DNA of 64,000 nucleotides from the IMG/VR virus record IMGVR_UViG_3300028384_000991, positions 62,001 through 126,000 of that record, one strand, 5' to 3'. Position numbers and translations under genes: made by a program. The stretch is from a virus. Under the pieces are notes generated by a model, which saw only the letters and a list, made by a program, of their open reading frames with translations, made no database searches and was not told the origin of the DNA. This document shows positions 7,445 to 62,964 of the stretch, one piece after another; within the stretch, counting starts at the first letter, position 1, and each line of letters starts with the position of its first letter.

Positions 7445-8474
7445 ATGCTTCTGCTACTTCTGGTATGTAGTCTTGTATTCTACATCCACGTAATTTATCA
7501 AAGGTTTCTATCCATTTTAAAAATGCATTGTATTGTACTTCGTCTCGTTCTTGCTCAACCCAGTATTTAAATTTTTCAGGTGCAAACTTTTTAATACTAT
7601 CAGGAGCATTTTTACTATCGAAGTATGTAGGGTGAAACAGTAAATTATCAAATACACGGAAGTCGTTTGTTTTTGCCCAACCTACAATATTATCATAATC
7701 ATGTAAGTTCATAATCTGTATTGTAGGACCTAAACTTTTGTATTTTACAAATTCTGCCCAACGTAACATATTTGTTTCTACAGTTTTCCAATCGCTACCC
7801 CAACGAATATAATCATTCACTTTGCCTATACCGTCAACACTAAAACACATATTGACTGTATCAAAACGTTTTAGTTCTTCGTACACATTAGGGTTAATAA
7901 TTGTAGCATTGGTATTGAATCTTATTTCAACGCTATTATCTAATTTCTTAAGAAACTTATGTAAGCCTCTTACCATCATAGGTTCGCCACCTGTTAAATA
8001 AACTTCTCTTAGTTCGGGCAAACTTGCAAGGTAATCGCCACGTTCTTCTGTATACCAATCATAGTTAGGAAACTGTTCGTTGCCCCAAGGTGATTCTAAA
8101 CCTTTCGCAAGTAATTCTTTATGATCTTGATTTACACCGCTTGATGTTGCAGGGTAGCACATAGTACATTTGAGATTACAATTACTACCAAAGCGTAAAT
8201 CCAGATGACTTACGCCAGGACCATACTGTCGTGGCTTAGTACGTTGACTGCCTTGTCCGGATGCTTCTTGTATTTCACATTTTTTACAAGCATCAGGAAA
8301 TTCGTTGTTATCAAATTTTTGTACTGCATCTTTGAATATTTTACTATTGCGCCATTCTTCTATCGTGTGCGTTTGAATATTTTCTTTATTTGTTGGTTCT
8401 CTGCTAATACAACACAAGCGAAACTCGCCAGATGTTCTAATACAAACTTGATGATCTAAATACTTACACTTCAC
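7431..8474 (-). CDS. Radical SAM protein with N-terminal twitch domain
   Basis: This 347-residue protein has CX3CX2C at Cys99, Cys103 and Cys106, then an LTGGEP motif. It starts directly with twitch cysteines (Cys3, then Gly-Glu-Phe-Arg-Leu-Cys21-Cys22, then Cys63-x2-Cys66), so the auxiliary domain precedes the core. The body and end resemble the gene at 261-1562, including a closing FDKLRGCRIQDYIPEV segment comparable to LDKSRGTDFRKTFPEL there. This indicates a duplicated family within the island. It overlaps its upstream neighbour by 11 nt and the kinase-like gene by 14 nt. Confidence 0.85.
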   Translation of the reverse strand: MKCKYLDHQVCIRTSGEFRLCCISREPTNKENIQTHTIEEWRNSKIFKDAVQKFDNNEFPDACKKCEIQEASGQGSQRTKPRQYGPGVSHLDLRFGSNCNLKCTMCYPATSSGVNQDHKELLAKGLESPWGNEQFPNYDWYTEERGDYLASLPELREVYLTGGEPMMVRGLHKFLKKLDNSVEIRFNTNATIINPNVYEELKRFDTVNMCFSVDGIGKVNDYIRWGSDWKTVETNMLRWAEFVKYKSLGPTIQIMNLHDYDNIVGWAKTNDFRVFDNLLFHPTYFDSKNAPDSIKKFAPEKFKYWVEQERDEVQYNAFLKWIETFDKLRGCRIQDYIPEVAEAYGIN

Positions 8475-9447
8475 CGCAAGTTACCTCACAAATTTTAAAT
8501 CTATTTTCTTTAGGTTGTGTTAACATATCACTTTCAACTATTTCTTGTATACTCAGGTCATTTACATTAGGCCACGTAATACTATTACATTCTTTTGCAT
8601 AAGGACTATCAGGATTTTTCGCATAGCGATCGCTTAACAAATAGCAACAAGGAAATACTTCTCCAGTATGACTAATTTGTATTTTTTGTTTGCGTTGCCA
8701 TTTGCAATTTATACAACCTTTTTCTAATCCCACTTCTAATACTTTTTCTAAACGTTCTACATTGTCTAAATGTTTCTTGTCATATTTTACAGTACGTTCT
8801 TGTTCTTTTTTTGTTGCTTTAAATTTTTCTACTGCTTCTGATACAATACTATCCATAGCAGTAAATGTGTAACCGCCATTAATATCAAAAACAACAAACC
8901 CCATGTCTTTAGAAAGTTGTTCGCACTGTTCTATTTGATGTTTGTTGTGATCAAATACAAGCATACGCCATCTTGCTAATCCACCAGAATCAATAAATGC
9001 TTTGGCATTGTCCATTACATTTTTCCAAACAACATGACGTCTATATAAATGATTAGTATCTTCTAACCCGTCAATACTAAATGTAATTACGCCTTGTGGA
9101 AAGTTTCGTAATTCCTGTGCAATTAGTCTGTATAGATTTGGTTTACCAATGCCTCCGTTGGTGTGTATCATTATTTTACATTTTAGTTTTCTTGCATATT
9201 GTAATGCAAATGGTAAATTTGGATTCATTAAAGGATCGCCGTAAGCACCATTAAAAATAATTTCTTCTACACCTCTTGCATTGTCAACAATATTCTTAAA
9301 AGTATCCATGTCCATATGACCTAAAGGCATATGTGGATTAACAGTAGTGCCGTCAATATTGCGTGAACAATTACCACACATAGCATTACAATGACTTGTA
9401 AAGTCAACTACTATTGTTTTAAGATTATTTTTAGACAAAAATTGCAT
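8464..9447 (-). CDS. Radical SAM protein with C-terminal SPASM domain
   Basis: I start at the ATG at 9447 (327 residues); 25 further codons upstream are open but run into the divergent promoter region. Motifs are CX3CX2C at Cys20, Cys24 and Cys27, then a FNGAYGDPLMNP block in the GGEP position. The C-terminal SPASM-like part is Cys-Ile-Asn-Cys, Gly-Glu-Val-Phe-Pro-Cys-Cys, and a final Cys-x3-Cys-Gly-Glu. It is first in the minus-strand operon and only 58 bp from the divergent hydroxylase gene. A TTAAATA box lies exactly 5 nt before the ATG. Confidence 0.83.
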   Translation of the reverse strand: MQFLSKNNLKTIVVDFTSHCNAMCGNCSRNIDGTTVNPHMPLGHMDMDTFKNIVDNARGVEEIIFNGAYGDPLMNPNLPFALQYARKLKCKIMIHTNGGIGKPNLYRLIAQELRNFPQGVITFSIDGLEDTNHLYRRHVVWKNVMDNAKAFIDSGGLARWRMLVFDHNKHQIEQCEQLSKDMGFVVFDINGGYTFTAMDSIVSEAVEKFKATKKEQERTVKYDKKHLDNVERLEKVLEVGLEKGCINCKWQRKQKIQISHTGEVFPCCYLLSDRYAKNPDSPYAKECNSITWPNVNDLSIQEIVESDMLTQPKENRFKICEVTCGEV

Positions 9448-9452
9448 ACTTG

Positions 9453-9460
9453 TATTTAAC
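9453..9460 (-). promoter_or_regulatory. Putative late-type promoter, leaderless
   Basis: GTTAAATA on the minus strand, followed by five bases and the ATG of the radical SAM gene at 9447. It resembles the T4 late -10 element (TATAAATA) seen better conserved elsewhere in the window. No sigma70 -35 is visible at the right distance. The expected start site would fall on the ATG itself. Confidence 0.4.
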
Positions 9461-9492
9461 ATCATTATCAGAGTACATAATGGTACCTGGCA

Positions 9493-9500
9493 CATAAATA
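9493..9500 (+). promoter_or_regulatory. Putative late-type promoter, leaderless, divergent
   Basis: CATAAATA, one mismatch from the T4 late consensus TATAAATA, followed by five bases and the ATG at 9506. There is no Shine-Dalgarno in the gap. It is paired with the minus-strand box at 9453-9460, so the two halves of the island would be switched on together. Confidence 0.5.
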
Positions 9501-9505
9501 CTGCT

Positions 9506-10225
9506 ATGCAAGAGTTAGACAATTTCCATAATCAATATGGTAAAGTTATTAATGAAAAATACCCAGATACATTTGATCCTAAGTGGTTAGTAATGGAAAG
9601 CGGTTGGGGTTATTTTCATATTAGTGCTTTAGATAATCAACCTTGGAAAGAAATGCACAAAGAAGCAGAAGCACTTGCTGATAAGTTTCATTCACACAGA
9701 GAAGATAGTTACGGTAAAGGTTGGAAAAGTCTAACACTACACGGACTTAATGAAGATACACAAAGTCTTGGCCAATACGGCGAACGTGACGAAGTTTTAA
9801 AACAATTAGATTGGACTTGGGTAGCAGAGCAATGTCCTATAACTAAAAAGTTTTTAACTGATGTTTGGCCAGCAGAATTTTTAAATCGTGTAAGATTTAT
9901 GCTACTTGAACCGGGCGGATATATTCTTCCACATCAAGACAGACCAGATGAAGAAAAACGTTTAAGTGTGTGCAACATTAGTTTAAACAATCCTGAAGAT
10001 TGTACATTTGTATTCAAAGAAAAAGGTATTGTTCCTTTCAAGGACGAAGGCAGTGCGTTTTTAATGGATATCAGTAATCCACACAGTGTTTGGAATAAAA
10101 GCAATAAGCCAAGAATACACATGATTATACATTTCGAATTAGGTAGACGTACCAGAGATATGTTTTATACACTAAGGCAAAGTTTTTATACAAACAGGAG
10201 TAGGCTAAATGAAGGATTGGAATAG
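9506..10225 (+). CDS. Aspartyl/asparaginyl beta-hydroxylase-family 2OG oxygenase
   Basis: This 239-residue protein has a clear hydroxylase core: LLEPGGYILPHQD with iron ligands His143 and Asp145, distal His193 in SNPHSVWN, and Arg203 in PRIHMIIH for 2-oxoglutarate. Unlike classical AspH, which has His-x-Gly, it keeps the acidic ligand. It is the first gene of a plus-strand operon of five overlapping genes (9506-13583), two more of which are also 2OG-type oxygenases. The target is unknown. Confidence 0.78.
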   Translation: MQELDNFHNQYGKVINEKYPDTFDPKWLVMESGWGYFHISALDNQPWKEMHKEAEALADKFHSHREDSYGKGWKSLTLHGLNEDTQSLGQYGERDEVLKQLDWTWVAEQCPITKKFLTDVWPAEFLNRVRFMLLEPGGYILPHQDRPDEEKRLSVCNISLNNPEDCTFVFKEKGIVPFKDEGSAFLMDISNPHSVWNKSNKPRIHMIIHFELGRRTRDMFYTLRQSFYTNRSRLNEGLE

Positions 10226-13583: not shown

Positions 13584-14884
13584 ACCATAGATTCCCAAGC
13601 ACTACCGTTGTAGAATACTGGGTAAGGTGTTGAACCTGCTGAACTTGCAGGATCCCAATCTGTTTTATTAGCAACAGCAATCATACCAATTACTGGAGTA
13701 CTTGGGGCCGCCGCTTGTGGCTCAAGGATCATTACACCTTCAATATCAACAGTTGCTCTTGCACTTGTTCTATTGACTGCAAGTTGACCTGCACTATCAA
13801 AGACCATACCTTTTAGGTCTGGTGAAGTATTTGTGCCTGCGTTTGTAAAGAATTCAATTTGTCCTGGTGCTTGATCGTTTGCAATAGTACCGTTTGGATC
13901 TAATCTAAAAGCAATACCTGATGATACAACTTTTGTACCACCACCAAAGTCTGGATCAAATGCAGTTGCAATTAATTCTGCAACATAAGAACCTGCTGTA
14001 CCCTTAACCTCATTGCCACCAAGTGACCCATCAAGGTTTGGTAGTCCGCCGTAGTAACCGTTGAATGCAATACCTGAAACTTGTCCAGAACCACTGCCAT
14101 TTAAACTTTGAATTCTAATTGCACTGTTGTTATCTTGGTTCCATACGTTCAGTACTGTGTTTGTTGGCTCAGTAGGATTACTAATGTTAACCAACGCAGT
14201 TGTTGAAGTTACAGTGTCGTCTGTAATTGTAATTACACCGTTGTGTAGGTATACTCTTGAATCAAGTCCATTAACAAGCATAGTTGAGTCTTCACCAAAC
14301 ACAGAACCAGTAACATCAGCACTGATACTGTTTAGTGCGCCACTTGATAAGTTAATGTCACCTGGTTTCCAATAACCAGCCGCATCGTCCCATAATAGAT
14401 ATTGTCCGTCTACCGGTGCGTTAATTCCTGCTGTTGCAACATCGCCAAAAATGTTAATGCTTTTTCCGCCAGCAGTAGCATCAAAGTCAAATGATGAAAA
14501 ACTTTCATCTGCTATTACCCAACCACCTTGACTACCGTCTGGATTGTTTAGAGTAGAGTCATATTTTAAAATTTTACCTGTAGCAACGCCTGTTGCGTCT
14601 ACGTTGTTTAGATCTTGAATATCTTGCACAACTTCTAATGTTTGTGCGTCCCATTGAGTACCTGTCCAAGTTAGCAATTGATTTGTTGCAGGAGCAATAG
14701 AAGTGTTTACATCAGTTAAATTACCAATGCTTAAATCCGGATTAATTATTCTGCCTGTTGCAGTTGTACCATCACCGATATACAGTTTACCTGTATCTGT
14801 TACATATATTGGTTCACCAGTTGCAGATACACCTGTTAGTGCTTGTAATTCTGCGTCGGTTCCTCTTCTAATCCTAAGTGCCAT
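13580..14884 (-). CDS. Tail fibre-like protein with Mtd-type N-terminal domain
   Basis: This 434-residue protein opens with RIRRGTDAELQAL...GEPIYVTDTGKLYIGDGTT, the pattern of the short beta-structured repeat found at the N-terminus of phage tropism determinants and tail fibres. The rest is low-complexity, rich in Gly, Thr, Ser, Asn and Asp, with a repeated Q-L/Y-L-x-W-D/T-G motif (NQLLTWTGTQWD and GQYLLWDDAAGYW). It is probably a host-contact or accessory fibre protein. A late promoter lies 34 bp upstream of the start, consistent with virion expression. Confidence 0.72.
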   Translation of the reverse strand: MALRIRRGTDAELQALTGVSATGEPIYVTDTGKLYIGDGTTATGRIINPDLSIGNLTDVNTSIAPATNQLLTWTGTQWDAQTLEVVQDIQDLNNVDATGVATGKILKYDSTLNNPDGSQGGWVIADESFSSFDFDATAGGKSINIFGDVATAGINAPVDGQYLLWDDAAGYWKPGDINLSSGALNSISADVTGSVFGEDSTMLVNGLDSRVYLHNGVITITDDTVTSTTALVNISNPTEPTNTVLNVWNQDNNSAIRIQSLNGSGSGQVSGIAFNGYYGGLPNLDGSLGGNEVKGTAGSYVAELIATAFDPDFGGGTKVVSSGIAFRLDPNGTIANDQAPGQIEFFTNAGTNTSPDLKGMVFDSAGQLAVNRTSARATVDIEGVMILEPQAAAPSTPVIGMIAVANKTDWDPASSAGSTPYPVFYNGSAWESMV

Positions 14885-14918
14885 ACTTGTTAACTCCCGA
14901 AGTCTTTATTGCTATATG

Positions 14919-14926
14919 TATTTATT
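14919..14926 (-). promoter_or_regulatory. T4-like late promoter
   Basis: AATAAATA (followed by C) on the minus strand, 34 bp before the fibre gene start. One base differs from the T4 late consensus TATAAATA. The expected start is about 6 nt downstream, giving a short leader. Confidence 0.7.
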
Positions 14927-14953
14927 CTTTTTGACTTCTTTTAATAATATACA

Positions 14954-22311: not shown

Positions 22312-23291
22312 TATGCATACCTTGCATTTAGAGGTTCGCTATAACTCTGCACTTGTTCTGAAATTCTATTAAGTTCGTGTTTAGCACAGAACTTCATAAG
22401 TTTCACACCAACTTGAGCAACTTCTTTAGGCTTACTATTATCTGCAATAACCTGTGCTAAGATTTGTTTAATTTCATCTGGCTGTGCGGATAAATCACAA
22501 AGTGTTACATTGCGTTGATAGTCTTCAAGCACACGATGTTCTACACCTTCATGATCAATCCAACGTTGTAGCATCATATTATTCCAGTTATAACCTTTGC
22601 TATCTTTGTCAGCAAATGCTTCTTTTAAGCCTACTTTGTTTTTAGTGCCTTTTACTCTAACACCAGGATATGCTGAGAACACATTATCACTTGTGTCACC
22701 ACGCATACACTTTTCAAATAGTAACCATTGCGGATCGGGTGCCGCCTTAGGCTCGTTAGTTTTCTTGTCTACCACAGGTTTACCTTTATCATCAAAGTAA
22801 CCTTCGTGTGTAACTGTTACGTTTTGTACACCATTGTACTGCTTTACATTGGGAGCAATTAATTGTGCAAAATCTCCGTCAGTTGAAATAATAACATGAT
22901 TGTCATTAGGATGTGATTGTATCCAACCTGCAATTAAATCATCTGCTTCGAGTTGCGGATGTTGTAAAACAGTACAATTAGTTTTGTTTGTAACAAAGTC
23001 TTTAAACTCGTCAAACATTTCCCAGAATACTTCTTCTTCCTCTTGCTGACTTGCAGTTAGTGCCGCACGAGCATCACTTCTATTTCTTTTGTAAGGCTCG
23101 TAATAATCTTTACGCCAACTGCGTCCTTCAAGACAAAATATAACATGACTGCCGTCAAAGTCTTGCCATGCTTTCCTAATACCGTTTAAAGTAATATGAA
23201 AAGCCATGCCAACTTTATCTGTAAGGTTACCTCGTACTACGTGTCTTGCACGAAAGAAAGTGTTAGCAGTATCTACAAGAATATAGTTCAT
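22311..23291 (-). CDS. rnh: RNase H / 5'-3' exonuclease (T4 Rnh type)
   Basis: This 326-residue FEN-family nuclease has an acidic start MNYILVDTANTFFRARH, the R-x-x-x-Y helical gateway (SWRKDYYEPYKRNR), the metal-binding EADDLIAGW and STDGDFAQLI, and KCMRGDTSDNVFSAYPGVRVKG (helix-hairpin-helix with Asp ligands). In T4 the enzyme removes RNA primers from Okazaki fragments. The length is close to T4 Rnh (305). The 4-nt overlap with the small gene upstream makes them co-translated. Confidence 0.88.
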   Translation of the reverse strand: MNYILVDTANTFFRARHVVRGNLTDKVGMAFHITLNGIRKAWQDFDGSHVIFCLEGRSWRKDYYEPYKRNRSDARAALTASQQEEEEVFWEMFDEFKDFVTNKTNCTVLQHPQLEADDLIAGWIQSHPNDNHVIISTDGDFAQLIAPNVKQYNGVQNVTVTHEGYFDDKGKPVVDKKTNEPKAAPDPQWLLFEKCMRGDTSDNVFSAYPGVRVKGTKNKVGLKEAFADKDSKGYNWNNMMLQRWIDHEGVEHRVLEDYQRNVTLCDLSAQPDEIKQILAQVIADNSKPKEVAQVGVKLMKFCAKHELNRISEQVQSYSEPLNARYA

Positions 23292-23500
23292 TTTTTACCC
23301 TTAAAATATTTTTCACTGTACCATTTATAAAATGCAGGATCAGTAAAAAACTCTGCAACATGACTTGCTGGAACTTGATCGCTTCTAATACATTCGGCAA
23401 GAGATTCATATTCATACGTATCTACTTTACGTTTCATAGGTTTATCTTTAAAATTCTCTGCCAATGTCTTAACCATTCTATAGTTCTTTTCCGAATCCAT
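23288..23500 (-). CDS. Small conserved phage protein, leaderless start
   Basis: This is 70 residues from the ATG at 23500. The ATG at 23506 is embedded next to the -10 box and cannot be on that promoter's transcript; an internal ATG at 23476 with GGAAAAG upstream is the other candidate. The product is basic and helical (YRMVKTLAENFKDKPMKR; ASHVAEFFTDPAFYKWYSEKYF). It is translated with RNase H (ATGA overlap) and heads that operon. Confidence 0.62.
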   Translation of the reverse strand: MDSEKNYRMVKTLAENFKDKPMKRKVDTYEYESLAECIRSDQVPASHVAEFFTDPAFYKWYSEKYFKGKK

Positions 23501-23506
23501 AGTCAT

Positions 23507-23535
23507 ATTATACTATTTTTTAGGTGTGTTGTCAA
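23507..23535 (-). promoter_or_regulatory. Sigma70-type early promoter, start at ATG
   Basis: Minus strand TTGACA (23530-23535), a 17-nt spacer and TATAAT (23507-23512). The expected +1 at 23500 is the A of ATG, so the mRNA would be leaderless. Confidence 0.85.
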
Positions 23536-35445: not shown

Positions 35446-36206
35446 GGTTGGTCTCCTATTGTTACATTATATTTAGAAAATGCTTCTTTGTCAAGTGTTT
35501 TTTCTTGGCTAACGAAGTCAATTACATCAATTCTCGCTTTGAATCCAATACTGTTTAATTGAGTTGTATCAGCAGTATTGTCCTTGCGTTCTTGTTTTCC
35601 TCCTTCACGCATTGGAACTTTAATCCCTTTTGCTTGAATAAGTTTTGATAAATGATAAGACTTGCCTGTGCCTATATCAATTATACCTTTTAGATTACTA
35701 TGCATTATCATAGTAACTGCTCTACACACATCAGCAATGTGTATAAAATCTCTTGAATGATTGTTAATATATTCAACATCATTTCTCATAAGTTTTGGAA
35801 TAAACATATTAGGTCTTGCATCTGATCCATAAATGGTTGTGAATCTTAAACCAACTGCATTGTCGGGTGCTTCTTTTTCCATAATATGTTTTGTATATGC
35901 ATATGGATTTCTTTCAGGTTCTTTAGCAGTGCTTGAACTTGCATAGTAGATAGGAACACTGTAAAAGTCAAATAATCTTTTAGTTGCTTCTACATTGTTT
36001 TTCCAATACTCCATAGGTGAATCAAAACTTTCTCTTACTCCGCTCTTACCAGCCAAATGCACAACAGCATCTACTTCTGGTAAGTCACAGGTATTTAGGT
36101 CTGTACCTAATTTAAGATCAATAAATGTCATATCGTAAATACCACGCCAAAACATTTTTAATGTTGATCCAAGCATTCCTTCGCTACCTGTGAGTAAAAT
36201 TTTCAT
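35442..36206 (-). CDS. NAD-dependent epimerase/dehydratase
   Basis: This 254-residue extended SDR has the Rossmann Gly pattern LLTGSEGMLG, DAVVHLAGKSG, a Ser-Ser-Thr active-site strand (YYASSSTAKEPE) and Tyr-x3-Lys in PYAYTKHIMEKE. It would act on a nucleotide sugar. Its last bases overlap the clamp start (4 nt), and the clamp promoter lies within it. It could supply sugar for the glycosyltransferase at 30581 (inference). Confidence 0.85.
   Translation of the reverse strand: MKILLTGSEGMLGSTLKMFWRGIYDMTFIDLKLGTDLNTCDLPEVDAVVHLAGKSGVRESFDSPMEYWKNNVEATKRLFDFYSVPIYYASSSTAKEPERNPYAYTKHIMEKEAPDNAVGLRFTTIYGSDARPNMFIPKLMRNDVEYINNHSRDFIHIADVCRAVTMIMHSNLKGIIDIGTGKSYHLSKLIQAKGIKVPMREGGKQERKDNTADTTQLNSIGFKARIDVIDFVSQEKTLDKEAFSKYNVTIGDQP
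35466..35494 (-). promoter_or_regulatory. Sigma70-type early promoter for the clamp gene
   Basis: Minus strand TTGACA (35489-35494), a 17-nt spacer and TATAAT (35466-35471), inside the epimerase coding sequence. The leader is short and carries AGGAG. Confidence 0.85.
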
Positions 36207-43741: not shown

Positions 43742-44566
43742 TTAGTTCCTCTTTACGGTTTTACCGCCCATTAAATTATTTCCCATATCTAAAGCATTTA
43801 CTGCTGTACCATCTGCTTTTTTCTTTTGTGGTGCTTTAGGTAAACCTTTTTCATCTTTTGGTCTGTGTCCATATGCTTGTAGTGGATTTGCCACTGAAGC
43901 AATGTTACCCGCTGATGTTGCACCCGCTGTTGCTACTTCTTTGATACCTGCAAGTGCTTTCATTTCGTTAGCAAAGTCTGATGTTTGTTCTTGCTGTGTG
44001 CTTGATGCATCTGATACTAATTTTGCTAACTGCATAATATGATCTGCTTCGTCTACCGGCTTGTCTTTGTCAAGTGCCGCTTTACGTTTTGTTAATTCTT
44101 TTTTAAGTTCTGGATCCTTTGCTGTGTTTGGATCCGCTTGTAAATCTTGAATTGCTTTTTTCTTAGCATCGTAATCATCTTTGTCTTTGGTAGGTGTATA
44201 GTTAGATGATTCCGGAGCCGCCGCTTGTTTTGCCGCACCCTTTTCTGCTTGTTTAACCAGCATCATAAACTTCTGACGCATTGCTTGATCACCAAGAATA
44301 GTTGTTAACTGCTTTGCAAATGGAGCAATCTGTTTAGCAAGGTTACCTTGTAATGCACCGCCTGATGCAAGTTTATCTAAACCCTTTGCCATCATAGCAC
44401 CTGAGCCACCTTTAGCACCCATAGCCGCTCCTGCCATCTTTGCACCTTGTGCTGTTTTTTGTTGTTGCTGTGGATTAGCATCTTTTACAGCATTAGCCGC
44501 TTGTGTTGCAGGTTGTTCACCGCCTGGTACTGGCGCTTCTTTTAATGTTAGTTCTCTCAGTTTCAT
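43742..44566 (-). CDS. Ala/Gln/Gly/Lys-rich phage protein, unknown function
   Basis: This 274-residue protein has low-complexity Ala-Gln-Gly-Met segments (KMAGAAMGAKGGSGAMMAKG), a helical centre (APFAKQLTTILGDQAMRQKFMMLVKQAEKG) and a charged region. It starts with MKLRELTLKEAP, similar to the MQLRELFVEQSG opening of the nucleotidyltransferase at 46570, suggesting a shared N-terminal targeting or assembly tag. It is possibly packaged. Confidence 0.58.
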   Translation of the reverse strand: MKLRELTLKEAPVPGGEQPATQAANAVKDANPQQQQKTAQGAKMAGAAMGAKGGSGAMMAKGLDKLASGGALQGNLAKQIAPFAKQLTTILGDQAMRQKFMMLVKQAEKGAAKQAAAPESSNYTPTKDKDDYDAKKKAIQDLQADPNTAKDPELKKELTKRKAALDKDKPVDEADHIMQLAKLVSDASSTQQEQTSDFANEMKALAGIKEVATAGATSAGNIASVANPLQAYGHRPKDEKGLPKAPQKKKADGTAVNALDMGNNLMGGKTVKRN

Positions 44567-44570
44567 AATA

Positions 44571-46355
44571 CTATTTACCTTTTTTGCCGCCCTTCATGTT
44601 AGCACACCAATGGTACATTTTACCCTTTTCTCCACCATATTTACGAGCCTTAGCACGTAAACTACTTACACTGCCTTTGCAACTTGCACCTGCTTTTTTG
44701 ACTCTGCCTGGGCGTGATTTACCCTTTTTCTTACCGTCTGCAAAGTTTTCTGTTATGTTTTGTACATAATCATCTAACATAACCACACGAGCCATTTCAG
44801 CACCTTGTGTTGCAAGTGCATCGTATCTGTGATGACCGTTTACAATTCTACCTCTACGATCAACTACAATAGGTTCATATGTATCTTCACGTACTTTTTT
44901 GTATTGTTTTATAAGTTTTTTGAAATCTCTATCTTTTTGCACAGGCTTAATATTAGCAAGTTTCATAACACCTTGCTTGCCATCTACATCTGAACCTTTA
45001 ATTTGCGGAGGTGCTTCACCACCTGTAGGTTCAGGATCGTAATTATGATCTTGGTATCCACTTACATCACCAACTTTATAACCTAAACGTTTTAGGTTTT
45101 TAATCATATGCTTTGCTTCTTTTTCTCCGCCAAAGAAGTTAAGATAAATGTCTTGGTCACCCATGTTAGCATCACTTGGATCTGTTTTTGCTATGTTTGC
45201 CATGTTACGACCTATTCTCATAAAGTCGTAATCAGTTGCATCTGAGTCTACTGCATAACTATTCTTTGGAAATGGTATTTCTGTACCTTCGTCTTTTTTA
45301 TTAAACTTGTGTGTGAATGCATCTTTATCTCCACGTGCCGCCGCGGCTCTTCTTGCTTTTAATTTATCTGCTACACTTGGCTCTTCTGGAGCACGTTTTT
45401 TCTTAATAGTTGCACGTTTTGGACTACGAGCAATTTGAAAACCCATAATCTCGTTTGTATCTTCTTCTGCTGGTTTGTTAAAATAATCTTTTAAACTTGA
45501 AGCAGTTCTTTCAAACTTGTGATCTTTGTGTTTAAATCCTACACCGCCTGATGCTTCCCACTTGCTTACATTTTGACCAAAGTCGTCAATTAATATGTTA
45601 GGTGTGCCGTCTGGATTTTTTGCATATGCTTGTTTGTCTGTGGTAATAATAACTTTCTTAGGTGGAAATGCTGTAAGATTTTTCTTAACCCATTCACGCT
45701 TATGAGGTTCTGCTCTATCATCATTTGCTAACGGAGCAGATAGAATATTGTATTCACCTTTAATATCTTTTATAATACTTAAAAGTTTATCTGCATTTGC
45801 AGTAGGTTTTAGTTTTAACCAAAAGTCGTCTGTATCTCTAATCTTTTGCAGTGCTTGGTCAATATTTTTAATCTGTTTCCAATCACTAACACCCATCATT
45901 TTGGTCCATTCGCCAAAGAAATCTACAAGCACACCGTCCATATCTACATAAATTTCTGAATCACTTGATAGTTCCTTACCTTTGAGTTCGTCAAGTTTAG
46001 ATTCTTTTGCCATCTTAGTTGCTGTTGCATACATAACTGCTTCAGCATCTTTACCGTAACGATCTTTAAAGTCGCTTTTGTTCTTTTTCATGCCCTTGAC
46101 GTATTTTTCTTTTTTCTTTTCTTCGCCTTTGGTTAATGAACGTTCTTCAACGCTTTCAGCCATTCCTAAGTTAAACAGTACGTTTGTGCTTGAACCTTTT
46201 ACTTTTTTGCTTAGTGTAGGCGGACGTCCATCTTTATCTACTTTGTTACCGAACTTGGCCGCTTGTTTTTTAATAGCGTCAACACCAACGTCGGGTGTAG
46301 TGTTAACACCTTTTACAACTCTACCACCATTTTCTGTTAGATCTTTGAATCTCAT
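44571..46355 (-). CDS. Multidomain protein: HAD nucleotidase, ParB-like domain and basic Cys tail
   Basis: This is a 594-residue chimera. The N-terminus contains KGEEKKKEKYVKGMKKNKSDF, a lysine-rich block seen in marine phage proteins. At about 137 a HAD domain of the 5'(3')-deoxyribonucleotidase type begins (IYVDMDGVLVDFFGEW, later NILIDDFGQNVSKWEASGG). A charged linker follows, then around 490-530 a ParB-like core (PIVVDRRGRIVNGHHRYDALA). The tail is ASCKGSVSSLRAKARKYGG with a final His-Trp-Cys. One protein could combine nucleotide and DNA functions or be a packaged multi-tool. It follows the 72-residue gene by an overlap. Confidence 0.7.
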   Translation of the reverse strand: MRFKDLTENGGRVVKGVNTTPDVGVDAIKKQAAKFGNKVDKDGRPPTLSKKVKGSSTNVLFNLGMAESVEERSLTKGEEKKKEKYVKGMKKNKSDFKDRYGKDAEAVMYATATKMAKESKLDELKGKELSSDSEIYVDMDGVLVDFFGEWTKMMGVSDWKQIKNIDQALQKIRDTDDFWLKLKPTANADKLLSIIKDIKGEYNILSAPLANDDRAEPHKREWVKKNLTAFPPKKVIITTDKQAYAKNPDGTPNILIDDFGQNVSKWEASGGVGFKHKDHKFERTASSLKDYFNKPAEEDTNEIMGFQIARSPKRATIKKKRAPEEPSVADKLKARRAAAARGDKDAFTHKFNKKDEGTEIPFPKNSYAVDSDATDYDFMRIGRNMANIAKTDPSDANMGDQDIYLNFFGGEKEAKHMIKNLKRLGYKVGDVSGYQDHNYDPEPTGGEAPPQIKGSDVDGKQGVMKLANIKPVQKDRDFKKLIKQYKKVREDTYEPIVVDRRGRIVNGHHRYDALATQGAEMARVVMLDDYVQNITENFADGKKKGKSRPGRVKKAGASCKGSVSSLRAKARKYGGEKGKMYHWCANMKGGKKGK

Positions 46356-48442: not shown

Positions 48443-48784
48443 CTAATGGTTTAACAAGATGCTGTTAATAGTACCATCTGTGTAAACTACTTTTGCTCTA
48501 ACCCATACAAAGTTACCAGTGAAATTAGCATATTTGCTGTCAGTTTCTTGTGCGGCTGTGTATGAATGCACTTCAAACCAGTCATCAGCATTAGGTGTAG
48601 TAGCAAGTGACGCTTCTATACTAATTGTTCCTGTTAATCCGGAATAACTGTATTGTACAGTATGAACACCGTCTGCTCTGCTGTAATATCCGTCACCCTT
48701 GTACTTGTCTCCGGTAATAGTTTCAACTGAACTATCGCCTGGATGAGTATTTGCTGATAAAATTATTTCACTGTTACTTGGCAT
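48443..48784 (-). CDS. Putative small virion protein (beta-sandwich)
   Basis: This 113-residue Thr/Ser/Tyr-rich beta-protein (DGVHTVQYSYSGLTGTISIE; NADDWFEVHSYTAAQETD; NFVWVRAKVVYTDG) resembles small marine phage structural proteins. It is transcribed from a late-type box placed exactly 5 nt before its ATG, implying a leaderless mRNA. There is no signal peptide. Confidence 0.6.
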   Translation of the reverse strand: MPSNSEIILSANTHPGDSSVETITGDKYKGDGYYSRADGVHTVQYSYSGLTGTISIEASLATTPNADDWFEVHSYTAAQETDSKYANFTGNFVWVRAKVVYTDGTINSILLNH

Positions 48785-48789
48785 ACAAC

Positions 48790-48797
48790 TATTTATC
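48790..48797 (-). promoter_or_regulatory. T4-like late promoter, leaderless
   Basis: GATAAATA on the minus strand with a 5-nt gap to the ATG at 48784. The expected +1 is at or within one base of the A of the start codon. No Shine-Dalgarno fits in between. Confidence 0.62.
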
Positions 48798-48802
48798 TAA
48801 AT

Positions 48803-51055
48803 CTACGCTGTAACAGTTTCTGCTTGTTTGGTTGCAATAAGTTTGATCTTATTATCTTCAGTAGCAATATGTAAATGACCGCCGTTTTTAAGTTCACCAA
48901 ACAACAATATCTTACTTAGATCACGTTTGATTTCTTTGTCAATTGTACGCTGTAAAGGTCTTGCACCCATCTTTTTGTCAAAGCCAACATCTACAAGATA
49001 GTCAATAGTTTCATCTGTAATATCAACTGTAACATTCTTTTCCGTAAGCATATCACGTAACTCTACAAGGAACTTACCAACAATCTTAATCATTGTGTTC
49101 TTTTCAAGTTTGCCAAATGCAATTACACCGTCAAGTCTATTACGGAATTCTGGTGCAAAGAATTTTTTAAGTTCAGTATCTTCATACTCTACTTCAAGAT
49201 CTTCATTGAAGCCGATGGCGTTTTTCTCTGCTTGTTCTGCACCTAAGTTTGTTGTTAGGATTAGTACAGCATTCTTCGCATCGGCTTCTTTCCCGTTGCT
49301 TCCGGTAACTTTTCCGTTATCCATTAATTGTAAAAGGATCTGCGATACGTCTGGATGTGCTTTTTCAACCTCATCAAGTAGTAATACACAGTTCGGATGC
49401 TCTTGCAATTTTGTAATCAATAAGCCTGCATTGTCCTCAAAGCCTACATAGCCTGGAGGTGAACCGATAAGTTTAGCAACTGAATGCTTCTCTTGATATT
49501 CACTCATATCAAAACGCACAAGTTCTACACTTAGTTCATTTGCTAACTGTTTTGCTGTTTCTGTTTTACCAACGCCTGTTGGACCCATAAACACAAAACT
49601 ACCTACAGGTTTGTTATCAGGCTTTAATCCTGCTTGTGCAACAAGAATTTTCTCTACAATTTCGTCAATTGCTTTATCTTGTCCATACACTTGCTTCTTA
49701 AGGTTGTCTTCAAGGTGTGCAAGGTTACTTGATTCTTTTTGTGATACCTGTTCTGGTGGAAGTTTAATTGCTTTTGCAAGTTCAAATTCAATTTCTTCTT
49801 TGCCTACAACTTTGTCACCTTCAACTGTTTTTAGATTAAATCTTGAACAAGCAAGATCAATTAAGTCGATCGCTTTATCAGGTAGTTTTTTATCAGCCAT
49901 ATACTTAACACTGAGTTTAATAGCAGTATCAATACCTTCTTCTGTAATCGTTGTAGTATGATAATCTTCGTAGTATTTTTTAATACCTTGTAGAATAGAC
50001 TTTGTCGTTGCTTTATCTGGTTCGCTTACACTAATACGTTGGAAACGTCTCATTAACGCACGATCTTTTTCAAAGTACTTGCGATATTCTTCCCAAGTAG
50101 TTGAAGCAACAACTTTGATATCACCTTTACCAAGAGCAGGCTTTAGCATATTAGCAAGATCATTTGCTCCACCACTGCCTCCTGCGGCACCTGCACCGTT
50201 CATCATATGTGCTTCGTCGATGAATACAATAGTTTTGCCTTGCTTTTTAATAGCATTCATTACAAGTTTAAAACGTTCTTCAAAGTCACCTCTGTACTTT
50301 GATCCTGCCAACATTGCACTAATGTCAAGATTGTAAACTTTATATTCCTGTAAGAATTCAGGGACTGCTTTATTAACAATATTATATGCAAGTCCTTCTG
50401 CAATAGCAGTTTTACCTACACCAGGATCGCCAACAAGCAATACATTGTTCTTTGCTCTACGTCCTAAAGAAAGTGCAATACTTTCAAGTTCTTCTGTGCG
50501 ACCAATTACTGGATCAATTTTACTTTTTTCTACTTCTTTGTTTAGATCTTTTGAAAATTCACGTAGTGCTTTCTGTTCTACAGTACGCATTTCTTCATCT
50601 TCGTAAACTGCTTCTAACTCGTTGTTTAGATAATCAGCAAACTGTTCTTTTGTTAATCCGGACTTTTGAATATGATAATATGACCAAGACTTTTTCTCAT
50701 TCATAATACTTAAAAACACATCTGTGATTTCAATATGGTGTCTACCACTAAACAGTACTTGTGTAAATGCTCTATTTAAAACACGTTCAACTGTTGCAGT
50801 CTTTTTAGGTTTAAATTTCTTAGTGTTCTCTGCAGGAAGTGTAATATCTTCTAAATCTTTTTTAAGATAGTTTTCGATATTCTTTTTGATAAACTCTGGA
50901 TCAGCACCAGCACCTTCAACAATTTTAGAAAACTTTTCACTGCACAGCATAGCAAATAGTAAATGCTCAAGGGTCACGTACTCGTGATTCAGTTTCTTTG
51001 CATCACTTACTGACTTGTCAAATACTGCTTGTAAATCGTCGCTTGGTTCAACCAT
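48803..51055 (-). CDS. clpA: ClpA-like AAA+ unfoldase with ClpP-docking loop
   Basis: This 750-residue double-AAA+ unfoldase has an N-terminal substrate domain, D1 Walker A GDPGVGKTAIAEGL with Walker B IVFIDEAHMM, and D2 Walker A GPTGVGKTETAKQL with Walker B VLLLDEVEKAH. Full length matches bacterial ClpA (758). The Ile-Gly-Phe at 614-616 is where ClpA/ClpX keep the loop that docks to ClpP, so it may use host ClpP to degrade targets. It overlaps the deformylase by 8 nt in a DnaJ-PDF-ClpA operon. Confidence 0.9.
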   Translation of the reverse strand: MVEPSDDLQAVFDKSVSDAKKLNHEYVTLEHLLFAMLCSEKFSKIVEGAGADPEFIKKNIENYLKKDLEDITLPAENTKKFKPKKTATVERVLNRAFTQVLFSGRHHIEITDVFLSIMNEKKSWSYYHIQKSGLTKEQFADYLNNELEAVYEDEEMRTVEQKALREFSKDLNKEVEKSKIDPVIGRTEELESIALSLGRRAKNNVLLVGDPGVGKTAIAEGLAYNIVNKAVPEFLQEYKVYNLDISAMLAGSKYRGDFEERFKLVMNAIKKQGKTIVFIDEAHMMNGAGAAGGSGGANDLANMLKPALGKGDIKVVASTTWEEYRKYFEKDRALMRRFQRISVSEPDKATTKSILQGIKKYYEDYHTTTITEEGIDTAIKLSVKYMADKKLPDKAIDLIDLACSRFNLKTVEGDKVVGKEEIEFELAKAIKLPPEQVSQKESSNLAHLEDNLKKQVYGQDKAIDEIVEKILVAQAGLKPDNKPVGSFVFMGPTGVGKTETAKQLANELSVELVRFDMSEYQEKHSVAKLIGSPPGYVGFEDNAGLLITKLQEHPNCVLLLDEVEKAHPDVSQILLQLMDNGKVTGSNGKEADAKNAVLILTTNLGAEQAEKNAIGFNEDLEVEYEDTELKKFFAPEFRNRLDGVIAFGKLEKNTMIKIVGKFLVELRDMLTEKNVTVDITDETIDYLVDVGFDKKMGARPLQRTIDKEIKRDLSKILLFGELKNGGHLHIATEDNKIKLIATKQAETVTA

Positions 51056-51575
51056 ATGTAATCATTCCTTTAATTTTTTTAAAATACTTTTGTTGTTTTT
51101 TCTTAGCCATATCTAATTTCATTTTACTTACACGATCAATATAATTGATTCCGTACAAGTGATCAAATTCGTGTTGGAATATTCTTGCATTCCATCCTTT
51201 AAACTCTATTTTACACTCTTTTCCGCTACTGTCAAGAAACTTTGCTACCAAAGCCTCTGCACGTTTTACCTTAAAGAACAATCCTGGAAAACTTAAACAA
51301 CCTTCTTCGCCTAAGACTGTTTGTTCTGATACTGCTTCTATTCTTGGATTGATAACAGCAAATGATTGTCCGTCTTTATAACCTTCCAAATCCTTTGGTT
51401 CCATTACAAAGATTTGTGCATCTAAGTCAACCTGATTGGCACTAAGACCTACACCATGTTCTTTGTTCATGATTTCGATCATTTGTTTTTCAATGTCTTT
51501 TGCGTCTAACTTATTAAAGTCAAATTCTTGCACTTGCTTTAATAAAGATGGATGCGGATGATAAACTAATTTCAT
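51048..51575 (-). CDS. def: Peptide deformylase
   Basis: This 175-residue enzyme has all three motifs: GVGLSANQ (41-48), EGCLSFPG with Cys93, and QHEFDH with His135, Glu136 and His139. The metal site is intact. It deformylates new polypeptides; marine phages often carry it, perhaps to speed maturation of phage proteins during takeover. The length equals bacterial homologues. It is coupled to DnaJ and ClpA by overlaps. Confidence 0.93.
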   Translation of the reverse strand: MKLVYHPHPSLLKQVQEFDFNKLDAKDIEKQMIEIMNKEHGVGLSANQVDLDAQIFVMEPKDLEGYKDGQSFAVINPRIEAVSEQTVLGEEGCLSFPGLFFKVKRAEALVAKFLDSSGKECKIEFKGWNARIFQHEFDHLYGINYIDRVSKMKLDMAKKKQQKYFKKIKGMITYG

Positions 51576-52417
51576 TCCTTAATCTTTCTTATTAAATCGT
51601 ATTGTTCTTCGGTTAAATTTTTTGGAATAACGCCGTTTACTTTTAGGTAAACATTTCCGGAAGCGCCTGAGTTGTAGTCTGGTAAGCCTTGACCGTGTAT
51701 GCTTAGAACTGTGCCTGGTTGTGTGCCTCTTGGTACATTAATACTTATAGTCTTACCTGACGGTAAAGTAAGATTTGTGGTAGTACCAAGTATCATTTCA
51801 AAAATATCTATTTTGGTAACAGCGTGTAAATTAACTCCGTCTACATCAAAGTCTGGATGCCTTAGTATTCTTACTTTTACATTTAGGTTTCCTCTTGGAA
51901 CTCCTGGTATACTATCGTCACCTAAGCCGCCATAACGTATTGTATCTCCGTGTTTTGCTCCTTTTGGTATATCAATATTAACAGTTTGTTCTTGACCACT
52001 GTTTGTTCTAAAAGTAGCAATAACACCTTTGCCTGTATACACTTCACCTACTGTAATATCACAAGCAATAGTAATGTCTCTGTTCTGTTGTGGACGTCTT
52101 TGCTGTTGAAAGCCTCGACCAAAAAATGTACCAAACAAATCATTCATGTCACCGTTGAATTCAAATCCTCCAGGACCAAAACCGCCAAAGCCTTGTTGCT
52201 GATAGCCTGCTTGTTGTGGATCAGCAGTGCCATATTGATCGTACATTGCTTTCTTTTGTGGATCTGTTAGTGTTTGATATGCTTCATTAAGTTGGGTAAA
52301 CTTCTTATGGTCACCACCCTTGTCAGGATGATGCTTTGCCGCCAATTTGCGGAATGCAGTCTTAATATCTTTTTCGGAAGCGTTACGAGAAACGCCTAAC
52401 AAATCGTAATAATCCAT
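51572..52417 (-). CDS. DnaJ-type (class II) co-chaperone
   Basis: The protein (281 residues) starts with the J-domain (YYDLLGVSRNASEKDIKTAF) and the HPD tripeptide at 30-32, then a Gly/Phe-rich linker (QQQGFGGFGPGGF), then C-terminal beta domains (VTVGEVYTGKGVI-like strand; GTQPGTVLSIHGQGLP). No zinc cysteine repeats are present, so it is CbpA-like. It would stimulate host DnaK. The mRNA should begin at the ATG, and the operon continues into peptide deformylase and ClpA. Confidence 0.92.
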   Translation of the reverse strand: MDYYDLLGVSRNASEKDIKTAFRKLAAKHHPDKGGDHKKFTQLNEAYQTLTDPQKKAMYDQYGTADPQQAGYQQQGFGGFGPGGFEFNGDMNDLFGTFFGRGFQQQRRPQQNRDITIACDITVGEVYTGKGVIATFRTNSGQEQTVNIDIPKGAKHGDTIRYGGLGDDSIPGVPRGNLNVKVRILRHPDFDVDGVNLHAVTKIDIFEMILGTTTNLTLPSGKTISINVPRGTQPGTVLSIHGQGLPDYNSGASGNVYLKVNGVIPKNLTEEQYDLIRKIKE

Positions 52418-52423
52418 AGCAGT

Positions 52424-52452
52424 ATTATATACTTATGTTAGGCGTTTGTCAA
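52424..52452 (-). promoter_or_regulatory. Sigma70-type early promoter, start at ATG of dnaJ
   Basis: Minus strand TTGACA (52447-52452), a 17-nt spacer and TATAAT (52424-52429). The A of the ATG at 52417 lies 7 nt from the last base of the -10. Confidence 0.88.
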
Positions 52453-59890: not shown

Positions 59891-60808
59891 TTATCCGTCT
59901 GTTAGACGTGCTAAACGAATCATGGTTGCGGCTAAATTAATCTCTGGATCTGCAACAAGTGTGTGATCTACAAGACCTTGTTTAATAATAAGAATAGCAT
60001 CATCTTCTTTGTCACCAAACAATGTAATATTGTCATACAACCATTTGAAAATATCTTCTACTTCATCTGGACGTACTTGACTACATACAAGTTTTCTTGC
60101 TTGATTAATTTTGCCTGCTTTGAATAGTTCGACCATTTCAAGTTTGTAGTCTGCTTCGCCTGTGTCACCTTCTTGTGGCTTTTGCAGTGTGCCATCTACA
60201 CTATTCATTTGTACCATATTGATACACTTACGCAAGTCTGGATATGTTGCTTTTACATAAGTGTCAAGTGTATCTAAGTCAGGTTGTACACCTTCTGTAA
60301 TAAGGATCTCTGCAACACGGGCAGTAAACTCTGTTTGATCAATACGTTCAATATGAAACCCTTGACAACGTGAATGTAGTGCAGGAATAATTCTGTTTGG
60401 ATAGTTACAGGTTAAAATAAATCTACTTGTAGTATGATATTCTTCCATTACACCACGCAGTGCCGCCTGTGCGTTCGGCGATAGATAATCTGCCTCATCA
60501 AGCAATACAACTTTAAACTCTCCAAATGGAATCATTTGTACAAAGTTAATAATTTTATCTCTAACATCATCAACTGAGTTTGTACGACTTGCGTTAATTT
60601 CTAAAATATCTAAATCATTAATTTCAAGTTCATTAAATAAAATTTTAGCAAGTGTTGTTTTACCAATACCTGCGTTACCTGAAAATAACAAATGTGGAAT
60701 AGTGCCTTCTTTGATCCATTGTTGCACTTGTTTTCTTTGATGTTCATCTCTGAACACATAACCGTCTACTGTTTTAGGACGATACTTTTCTACCCATAGT
60801 TCCTTCAT
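59891..60808 (-). CDS. 44: Clamp-loader ATPase subunit (gp44)
   Basis: This 305-residue AAA+ protein has the RFC-type motifs: Walker A GNAGIGKT (44-51), Walker [24 protein letters not shown] and the Ser-Arg-Cys motif HSRCQGF. T4 gp44 is 319 residues. It would load the gp45 clamp. No gp62 partner is adjacent, unlike T4. It shares its first bases with the upstream cytidylyltransferase (ATGA overlap). Confidence 0.92.
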
Positions 60809-61218
60809 TTACCTGCCTCTACTATTCGTTGTCTCAAATTAGTACTACTAAATGAGTGTTGCCTTTTATTATAATATATTTCTATGCCTTTGTCAACACA
60901 AATCTGCTTACCTGTAAAGTCTTTTGATTTGTATTCTTCGCCAATAAAGCGTTTGTGGATAGTATATGTTAGTAATATATCTTCCAAATCTTTTTCAGTT
61001 GAATATGGAATGATTTCGTCAATATACTTACAACCTGCTAATTGAACATAACGTTCAAATACACTTTGTATAGGTTTGTTCTTATCTGGTCTATCTATCG
61101 TAGGATCAGTTTGTAGTCCTACAATTAAATGGTTGCACTGATCAGATGCTTCTTTGAGCATCGCAACGTGACCTGTATGAAATAGATCAAATGTACTGAA
61201 TGTAATACCGACTGTCAT
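60805..61218 (-). CDS. Cytidylyltransferase (TagD-like), leaderless
   Basis: This 137-residue nucleotidyltransferase has TFDLFHTGHVAML (H-x-G-H) and RQHSFSSTNLRQRIVE (signature for CTP-binding Arg). It might make a CDP-activated polyol or alcohol. The ATG at 61218 is chosen because the -10 box lies exactly six bases upstream. The downstream gene is gp44. Confidence 0.85.
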   Translation of the reverse strand: MTVGITFSTFDLFHTGHVAMLKEASDQCNHLIVGLQTDPTIDRPDKNKPIQSVFERYVQLAGCKYIDEIIPYSTEKDLEDILLTYTIHKRFIGEEYKSKDFTGKQICVDKGIEIYYNKRQHSFSSTNLRQRIVEAGK

Positions 61219-61224
61219 AGTGTT

Positions 61225-61252
61225 ATTATACACTAAATTGTAATAAAGTCAA
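61225..61252 (-). promoter_or_regulatory. Sigma70-type early promoter, start at ATG
   Basis: Minus strand TTGACT (61247-61252), a 16-nt spacer and TATAAT (61225-61230). The A of the ATG at 61218 lies 7 nt downstream, so the transcript would be leaderless. Confidence 0.78.
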
Positions 61253-62404: not shown

Positions 62405-62412
62405 TATTTATC
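62405..62412 (-). promoter_or_regulatory. T4-like late promoter
   Basis: GATAAATA (then C) on the minus strand, at the stop codon of the DnaE-like gene and 23 bp before the start of the 128-residue gene. Confidence 0.72.
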
Positions 62413-62929
62413 TAAGGAACTCACGCCAATCCAGGTCAAACTGAATTGGATTAATTCTGTGTACCCCAATCAAAAATAATACAAAACTTGATACACTTGA
62501 TCCTCTACCTACTCCCCAAAGTATGTTATTTTCACGCATATAGTCAACCAAGTAAACCATATAGCGTAACAAGTTCAACATATCTCTTTTTTCAAATTCA
62601 ATGTATTCTTCGTCTAATCTTTTTACTTGTTCTTCGTTAGTACATTTTGATTCTAAAAAACTATACACATCTAAGTTTTTATATGCTTCTGGCATAAACC
62701 ATTCGCTTTGACAAACATTATCAAATTGTGTTTTATCAACATCAATGGGGATATATTGTTTTAATGCTTGTGTACCAAATTCTTCTGCGTGTTTGTTGAA
62801 CTGTTTAATTTCATCATTCGGATCGCACAGAACTACATGACACTTATCAATATGTCCTGTATAGATCATATCAATCAGGTTCTTATTAGAAAAGATGGGT
62901 ATACCGTTAGAATCTGTTTTTAAAAGCAT
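62408..62929 (-). CDS. DNA polymerase III alpha (DnaE)-like fragment, leaderless
   Basis: This 173-residue protein has a C-terminal NNILWGVGRGSSVSSFVLFL (139-155) then HRINPIQFDLDWREFL, which match the DnaE palm segment (G-P-G-R-G-S... and I-D-P-x-x-Y-D-L-L-F-E-R-F-L). The polymerase, PHP and finger domains are absent, so it cannot be a polymerase on its own. It may be a DNA- or nucleotide-binding remnant with a new role. The A of its ATG lies 7 nt from a TAAAAT -10 box. Confidence 0.6.
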   Translation of the reverse strand: MLLKTDSNGIPIFSNKNLIDMIYTGHIDKCHVVLCDPNDEIKQFNKHAEEFGTQALKQYIPIDVDKTQFDNVCQSEWFMPEAYKNLDVYSFLESKCTNEEQVKRLDEEYIEFEKRDMLNLLRYMVYLVDYMRENNILWGVGRGSSVSSFVLFLIGVHRINPIQFDLDWREFLR

Positions 62930-62935
62930 AAGTGT

Positions 62936-62964
62936 ATTTTAACTTACGTTAATTAAATTGTCAA
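62936..62964 (-). promoter_or_regulatory. Sigma70-type early promoter, start at ATG
   Basis: Minus strand TTGACA (62959-62964), a 17-nt spacer and TAAAAT (62936-62941). The A of the ATG at 62929 is the expected +1. Confidence 0.68.

Follow-up and report, generated by a model that had tools for sequence, protein, structure and literature searches.

Leaderless genes have already been described in bacteria and archaea and in a few phages; the phage transcripts of this kind include lambda cI, those of the Thermus phages P23-45 and phiYS40, and late transcripts of phiKZ. Phage transcripts have been described as "often leaderless", and TATG late promoters of phiKZ have been reported (PMC5312081). 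In Sinorhizobium meliloti, 171 leaderless mRNAs have been mapped (PMC3616915), and initiation at the terminal AUG of leaderless mRNAs, by 70S ribosomes or with the help of initiation factors, has been reviewed (PMC9031893). A literature search, thin in subscription papers, gave no report of systematic leaderless genes in T4-type phages or at T4-type late promoters, nor of one phage that is leaderless at both host-type and late promoters.

The DNA analysed here, hereafter called the window, is a stretch of 64,000 nt comprising positions 62,001-126,000 of the 156,563-base IMG/VR record IMGVR_UViG_3300028384_000991. By its gene content the record is a T4-like phage, encoding a gp43 polymerase, a clamp loader, a gp46/47-type nuclease and a gp55 late sigma factor (record 14111-14944, minus strand; match to phrog_12791, E 1.7e-76). 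Its gp43 polymerase is nearest to those of jumbo phages of alphaproteobacteria, sharing about 50% identity with Phosso and 47% with Atu_ph07. An earlier note on the window had proposed leaderless translation at four sigma70 promoters. Our analysis indicates that a subset of the genes of this marine phage is very probably transcribed leaderless, and from two promoter classes, sigma70 and T4-type late. The promoter elements, the fixed spacing, the lack of Shine-Dalgarno sequences, the conservation and the switching between leaderless and leadered forms were read from the sequence, and the exact +1 positions are predictions.

Sigma70 promoters six nucleotides before the start codon

As the earlier note had pointed out, the sigma70 -10 elements at the four starts 52417, 61218, 23500 and 62929, all on the minus strand, end exactly 6 nt before the ATG (Table 1). 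To judge this spacing, the record was searched piece by piece for promoters that match 10 or more of the 12 consensus bases and have a spacing of 16-18 nt, and the distance of each to candidate start codons (ATG) was taken for ORFs no shorter than 60 aa. Sixteen strong sigma70 promoters have a candidate ATG no more than 60 nt away, five of them at exactly 6 nt; these five match 10-12 of the 12 sigma70 bases, with TTGACA/TATAAT spacers within 16-18 nt. Distances of 1-5 nt and of 7-17 nt do not occur; the remaining promoters are at 18 nt or more, mostly with a Shine-Dalgarno sequence, apart from two readings at 0 nt, of which one shares the -10 of the 23500 site and the other is a special case at window 32311. 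For five of the 16 to fall on one specified distance out of 61, the binomial probability is about 4e-6. The related phage DNA that was compared amounts to 1.59 Mb, and its loci are partly near copies (identical sites were counted once and related sites kept); in it, sigma70 sites number 38 at 6 nt, 8 at 7 nt and 0-2 at each distance of 9-17 nt. The repetition is thus not a matter of chance, in agreement with the earlier note, which had called chance unlikely. The pattern TATAATN6ATG, that is, the -10 plus the ATG alone, was not enriched over the control, which means that the sigma70 spacing signal requires the -35.

Table 1. Promoters and genes with predicted leaderless starts, and one leadered promoter for contrast (window positions unless stated).
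Feature	Position	Strand	Details
dnaJ co-chaperone gene, predicted leaderless start	51572-52417	-	Pfam DnaJ residues 2-60, DnaJ_C
Sigma70 promoter, dnaJ	52418-52452	-	-35 TTGACA 52452-52447, 17-nt spacer, -10 TATAAT 52429-52424
Discriminator of dnaJ promoter	52423-52418	-	ACTGCT; predicted +1 = A of ATG 52417
Cytidylyltransferase-like gene, predicted leaderless start	60805-61218	-	Pfam CTP_transf_like
Sigma70 promoter, cytidylyltransferase-like gene	61219-61252	-	TTGACT 61252-61247, 16 nt, TATAAT 61230-61225, AACACT
Small gene (70-aa protein), predicted leaderless start	23288-23500	-	
Sigma70 promoter, small gene before gp47-like nuclease	23501-23535	-	TTGACA 23535-23530, 17 nt, TATAAT 23512-23507, ATGACT
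DnaE-like gene (DNA polymerase III alpha-like fragment), predicted leaderless start	62408-62929	-	Pfam DNA_pol3_alpha, phrog_11127
Sigma70 promoter, DnaE-like gene	62930-62964	-	TTGACA 62964-62959, 17 nt, TAAAAT 62941-62936, ACACTT
Fifth sigma70 site, outside window	record 145249		TTGACA-16-TAAACT-ATAGTG-ATG
Leadered sigma70 promoter (contrast)	35446-35494	-	TTGACA-17-TATAAT, GTAACA then ATAGGAGACCAACC with Shine-Dalgarno, ATG 35445
Aspartyl/asparaginyl hydroxylase-like gene, predicted leaderless late promoter	9506-10225	+	Pfam Asp_Arg_Hydrox
Late box ATAAATA (9494-9500) + CTGCT	9494-9505	+	predicted +1 at ATG 9506
Radical SAM/SPASM protein gene, predicted leaderless late promoter	8464-9447	-	Pfam Radical_SAM, SPASM
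Late box TTAAATA + CAAGT, divergent partner of 9506 promoter	9448-9459	-	same in L213
274-aa gene, no assigned function, predicted leaderless late promoter	43742-44566	-	
Late box GTAAATA + GTATT, before 43742-44566	44567-44578	-	
113-aa gene, no assigned function, predicted leaderless late promoter	48443-48784	-	
Late box ATAAATA + GTTGT, before 48443-48784	48785-48796	-	

At the fifth 6-nt site the -10 is weak, the base at -1 is not T and the upstream stop codon is overlapped; therefore, coupling may serve this gene. In the special case, a TTGACA-17-TATAGT promoter at window 32312 abuts ATG 32311 directly, and a +1 lying 7 nt on would give a 12-nt leader without a Shine-Dalgarno sequence, followed by a double ATG; the case is either one of a different start codon or one of a short leader.

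Late promoters five nucleotides before the start codon

An unbiased count of 7-mers by their distance from candidate ATGs gave a single signal, ATAAATA at 5 nt, which is the T4-type late box. The distances of late boxes in the record are two-peaked, at exactly 5 nt and then at 16-34 nt with a Shine-Dalgarno sequence. The core TAAATA stands 5 nt before 10 genes of the record against 0.12 expected (87-fold), and 4 nt before two more. In the 1.59 Mb of related DNA, TAAATA is most frequent at 5 nt (28 sites), the distance at which the variant ATAAGTA was also found (13 sites). In T4, about one helical turn separates a late box from the transcription start site downstream of it (PMC2988020), so that with a gap of 5 nt the ATG would coincide with +1 or adjoin it. 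The genes with putatively leaderless late boxes include those for the gp25 baseplate wedge, a baseplate connector, a radical SAM protein, an aspartyl hydroxylase and a superoxide dismutase; the superoxide dismutase-like gene (L007:17209-17757, record 141209-141757) has its late box 4 nt before the ATG. The start codon is ATG at every listed leaderless site, most scans having demanded ATG; for late boxes with one mismatch at 5 nt, GTG was seen in 4 of the 10 candidates, mostly with poor boxes. The box at 9494 and its 5-nt spacing are retained in relatives L213-L222, L234 and L267. Window positions 9447-9506 hold a divergent pair of such late promoters, the start codons being separated by 58 bases, and a similar pair, 18916(-)/18943(+), occurs in phage HTVC008M.

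The earlier note had taken the leaderless arrangement as a trait perhaps favoured early in infection. This is too narrow, since T4-type late promoters in this phage also appear leaderless, at 5 nt.

Identical scripts were run on the record, HTVC008M, T4, Syn9, phiM12 and P-SSM2. Genome compaction alone might pack promoters against genes without any selection for leaderless starts; phage genomes are compact, and promoters do run into the 3' ends of upstream genes. Compaction, however, would lead to a spread of distances, whereas one exact distance per class was seen, followed by a near-empty range before the leadered promoters, and no such peak exists in T4, Syn9 and phiM12, where the same test detected no late boxes at 5 nt. 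We consider compaction as the sole cause extremely unlikely.

Conservation and switching at individual loci

The earlier note had named a spacing that relatives do not share as grounds for refutation; this check was made, and the proposal withstood it. The leaderless spacing is present in all 30 dnaJ sequences compared (the window and 29 relatives), of which 20 have a sigma70 promoter and 10 a late-type box. The dnaJ promoter of the window is retained in L009-L014, L016-L019, L023 and L024. On the tree the promoter class changes three times, at least two of the changes being forced by well-supported branches; judged from these sequences, the dnaJ promoter was replaced and the predicted leaderless spacing stayed. 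Downstream of dnaJ, and overlapping, are the genes for a peptide deformylase (51048-51575, phrog_2890) and a clpA-like protein (48803-51055, ClpA matches). Because the three genes overlap, the output of all of them may hang on one start. Within window 52424-52436, ATAAGTA, the late-box variant of the relatives, adjoins the dnaJ -10; it occurs at this place in nearly all of the relatives that retain the promoter, and could be an overlapping late promoter. Sinorhizobium phage Phosso has the same gene order, dnaJ - peptide deformylase - clpA-like, as window 48803-52417, and the dnaJ-clpA neighbourhood is also present in Agrobacterium phage Atu_ph07. These two phages were rejected as further leaderless dnaJ cases; their dnaJ is operon-internal, and their TAAATA counts are not clearly above the control.

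Conservation of the spacing in relatives was also found for the DnaE-like gene and for a part of the cytidylyltransferase relatives. The cytidylyltransferase-like gene lies upstream of a clamp-loader gene (59891-60808, phrog_168), and the same promoter layout was seen in L038-L040, L055, L058-L061, L063-L065 and L070-L076. At the DnaE-like gene, the layout is common to 13 of 13 relatives (L118-L130), with a spacing of 6 or 7 nt; CTTGACAA is invariant in them, and the neighbouring codons vary synonymously. This promoter runs into the upstream ORF at its 3' end, with the -35 within the upstream gene, and the fact that part of the conservation falls in the coding sequence of that gene counts against the leaderless reading. 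So does an extra ATG 6 nt upstream of the small gene at 23500. In the alignment of the small protein with its L134 relative, the latter starts about 16 residues later, and each start is 6 nt from its own -10.

The promoters at the gp47 locus of relatives L133-L212 are a mixture of leaderless and leadered ones. At the gp47 nuclease, the leaderless form occurs in 7 relatives and the leadered form in 34, and the tree shows 3-4 changes between them. The leaderless form reads AATACT-ATG and the leadered form ACTACT-ATAATAATTACAAAGGCAAACTA-ATG (ATA..AAAGGC..ATG). Compared in this way, gp47 orthologues have gained or lost a leader with the predicted +1 unchanged and the bases before it alike.

Initiation signals and relation to known systems

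The claim that Shine-Dalgarno sequences are missing at the leaderless starts was borne out: the median duplex energy is -1.5 kcal/mol for 17 leaderless genes and -6.6 kcal/mol for 24 leadered genes (p = 5e-7). It had also been held that each of the sigma70 promoters heads an operon. The genes do stand in same-strand arrays, but they are operon heads only loosely, the promoters either occupying a gap of some 38 nt or running into the 3' end of the previous gene. Such arrays would allow longer read-through RNAs to be translated by coupling or 70S scanning, the adjacent promoter being minor or internal; most of the genes lie in them, no more than about 38 nt from the preceding gene, and at the 145249 site the stop codon of the gene upstream is overlapped. 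We find this quite improbable, because no Shine-Dalgarno sequence is available for re-initiation, the exact spacing of both promoter classes would be left unexplained, and the divergent late pair 9447/9506 has no upstream gene for coupling.

A T precedes the ATG at 12 of the 12 late leaderless sites of the record and at 37 of the 46 sigma70 leaderless sites of the relatives; leadered sigma70 starts most often have A at this position. The usual initiator preference is for a pyrimidine preceding a purine start base, so the T at -1 points to the ATG as +1. In another reading, the promoters would serve mainly downstream genes or other RNAs; AT at +1 would simply be a preferred initiator that happens to form an ATG, and the protein would begin further on, at a ribosome-binding site of its own. 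AT is common at the predicted +1 of leadered promoters of this family, so that an ATG is only one base away from the initiator. This is nevertheless very unlikely. The ATG is the conserved first residue in DnaJ, the nucleotidyltransferase, the gp47 of the relatives and the baseplate connector; for dnaJ, a downstream restart is excluded because the J domain begins at residue 2 and would be truncated. Leaderless transcription, by contrast, is strongly supported by the fixed spacing, the lack of Shine-Dalgarno sequences, the T at -1, the conservation and the retention of the spacing across promoter replacement.

We propose that RNA polymerase would start on the A of the ATG, either at host-type sigma70 promoters whose -10 ends 6, sometimes 7, nt before it, or at T4-type late promoters where the gp55-like sigma of the phage would read a TAAATA box ending 5 nt before it. 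The predicted +1 may be off by 1-3 nt, the distance being 7 nt in some relatives and 4 nt at a few late sites. The ribosome would then initiate on the 5'-terminal AUG without a Shine-Dalgarno sequence, probably as 70S or IF-assisted, and later genes of the operon would be reached through coupling. Since these starts seem to offer no usable signal on read-through RNA, such RNA would be silent there, and translation would come mainly from RNAs begun at the gene's own promoter. It is possible, and we put it forward tentatively, that marine T4-like phages have a leaderless regulon that spans the temporal classes, makes translation conditional on initiation at the own promoter and may favour its genes when the state of the ribosome changes during infection.

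As to the cause, a search of the record for ribosomal protein S21 gave none, and phage-encoded bS21 was therefore rejected; the position of this protein is close to the anti-Shine-Dalgarno. The suggestion of a host that uses leaderless genes found no support in SAR11, a plausible host type: a pattern scan of four SAR11 genomes revealed no excess of -10 elements at the leaderless spacing, nor did a distance test on 400 kb of one of them reveal an excess there. SAR11 being no more than a plausible host type, this carries little weight for or against the suggestion.

Like the starts predicted here, the leaderless mRNAs of S. meliloti have +1 at the A of AUG, use AUG only and are without a Shine-Dalgarno sequence; they come, however, from chromosomal genes with mapped 5' ends, whereas the starts in the record belong to phage genes and are predicted. 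Lambda, P23-45, phiYS40 and phiKZ share with the record phage genes starting at AUG, late ones included, but these phages and their promoters are unrelated to it, and we know of none among them that combines a T4-type late promoter with sigma70 leaderless promoters. T4 has the same type of late box (TATAAATA, PMC2988020) and, like the record, a gp55 sigma; its boxes, unlike those of the record, never stand at 5 nt, and most precede the ATG by 23-29 nt. P-SSM2 was rejected as support: although four of its late boxes stand at 5 nt, the main peak is at 20-25 nt, and only one of the four has T at -1.

In a published survey, a method for cyanophages failed to predict late promoters in pelagimyophages (PMC7029224); leaderless late boxes would, in our view, give a concrete reason for this, and gene and promoter calling in this very abundant group of marine viruses would need correction. 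A close parallel is HTVC008M, an isolated SAR11/Pelagibacter phage in which TAAATA stands 5 nt before 10 genes and which, like the record, has a few sigma70 sites at 6-7 nt. The CDS starts annotated by its depositors match the predictions, including 6280, 7562, 11972, 16007, 18916, 18943 and 19456, and further 31132 (gp25), 49760 and 75830. Unlike the record, HTVC008M has a ribosomal protein S21 gene (L467:41228-41431, HTVC008M 91228-91431) and belongs to a separate lineage, its major head protein having no match in the record. As HTVC008M is an isolate with a cultured host, the leaderless arrangement is directly testable there.
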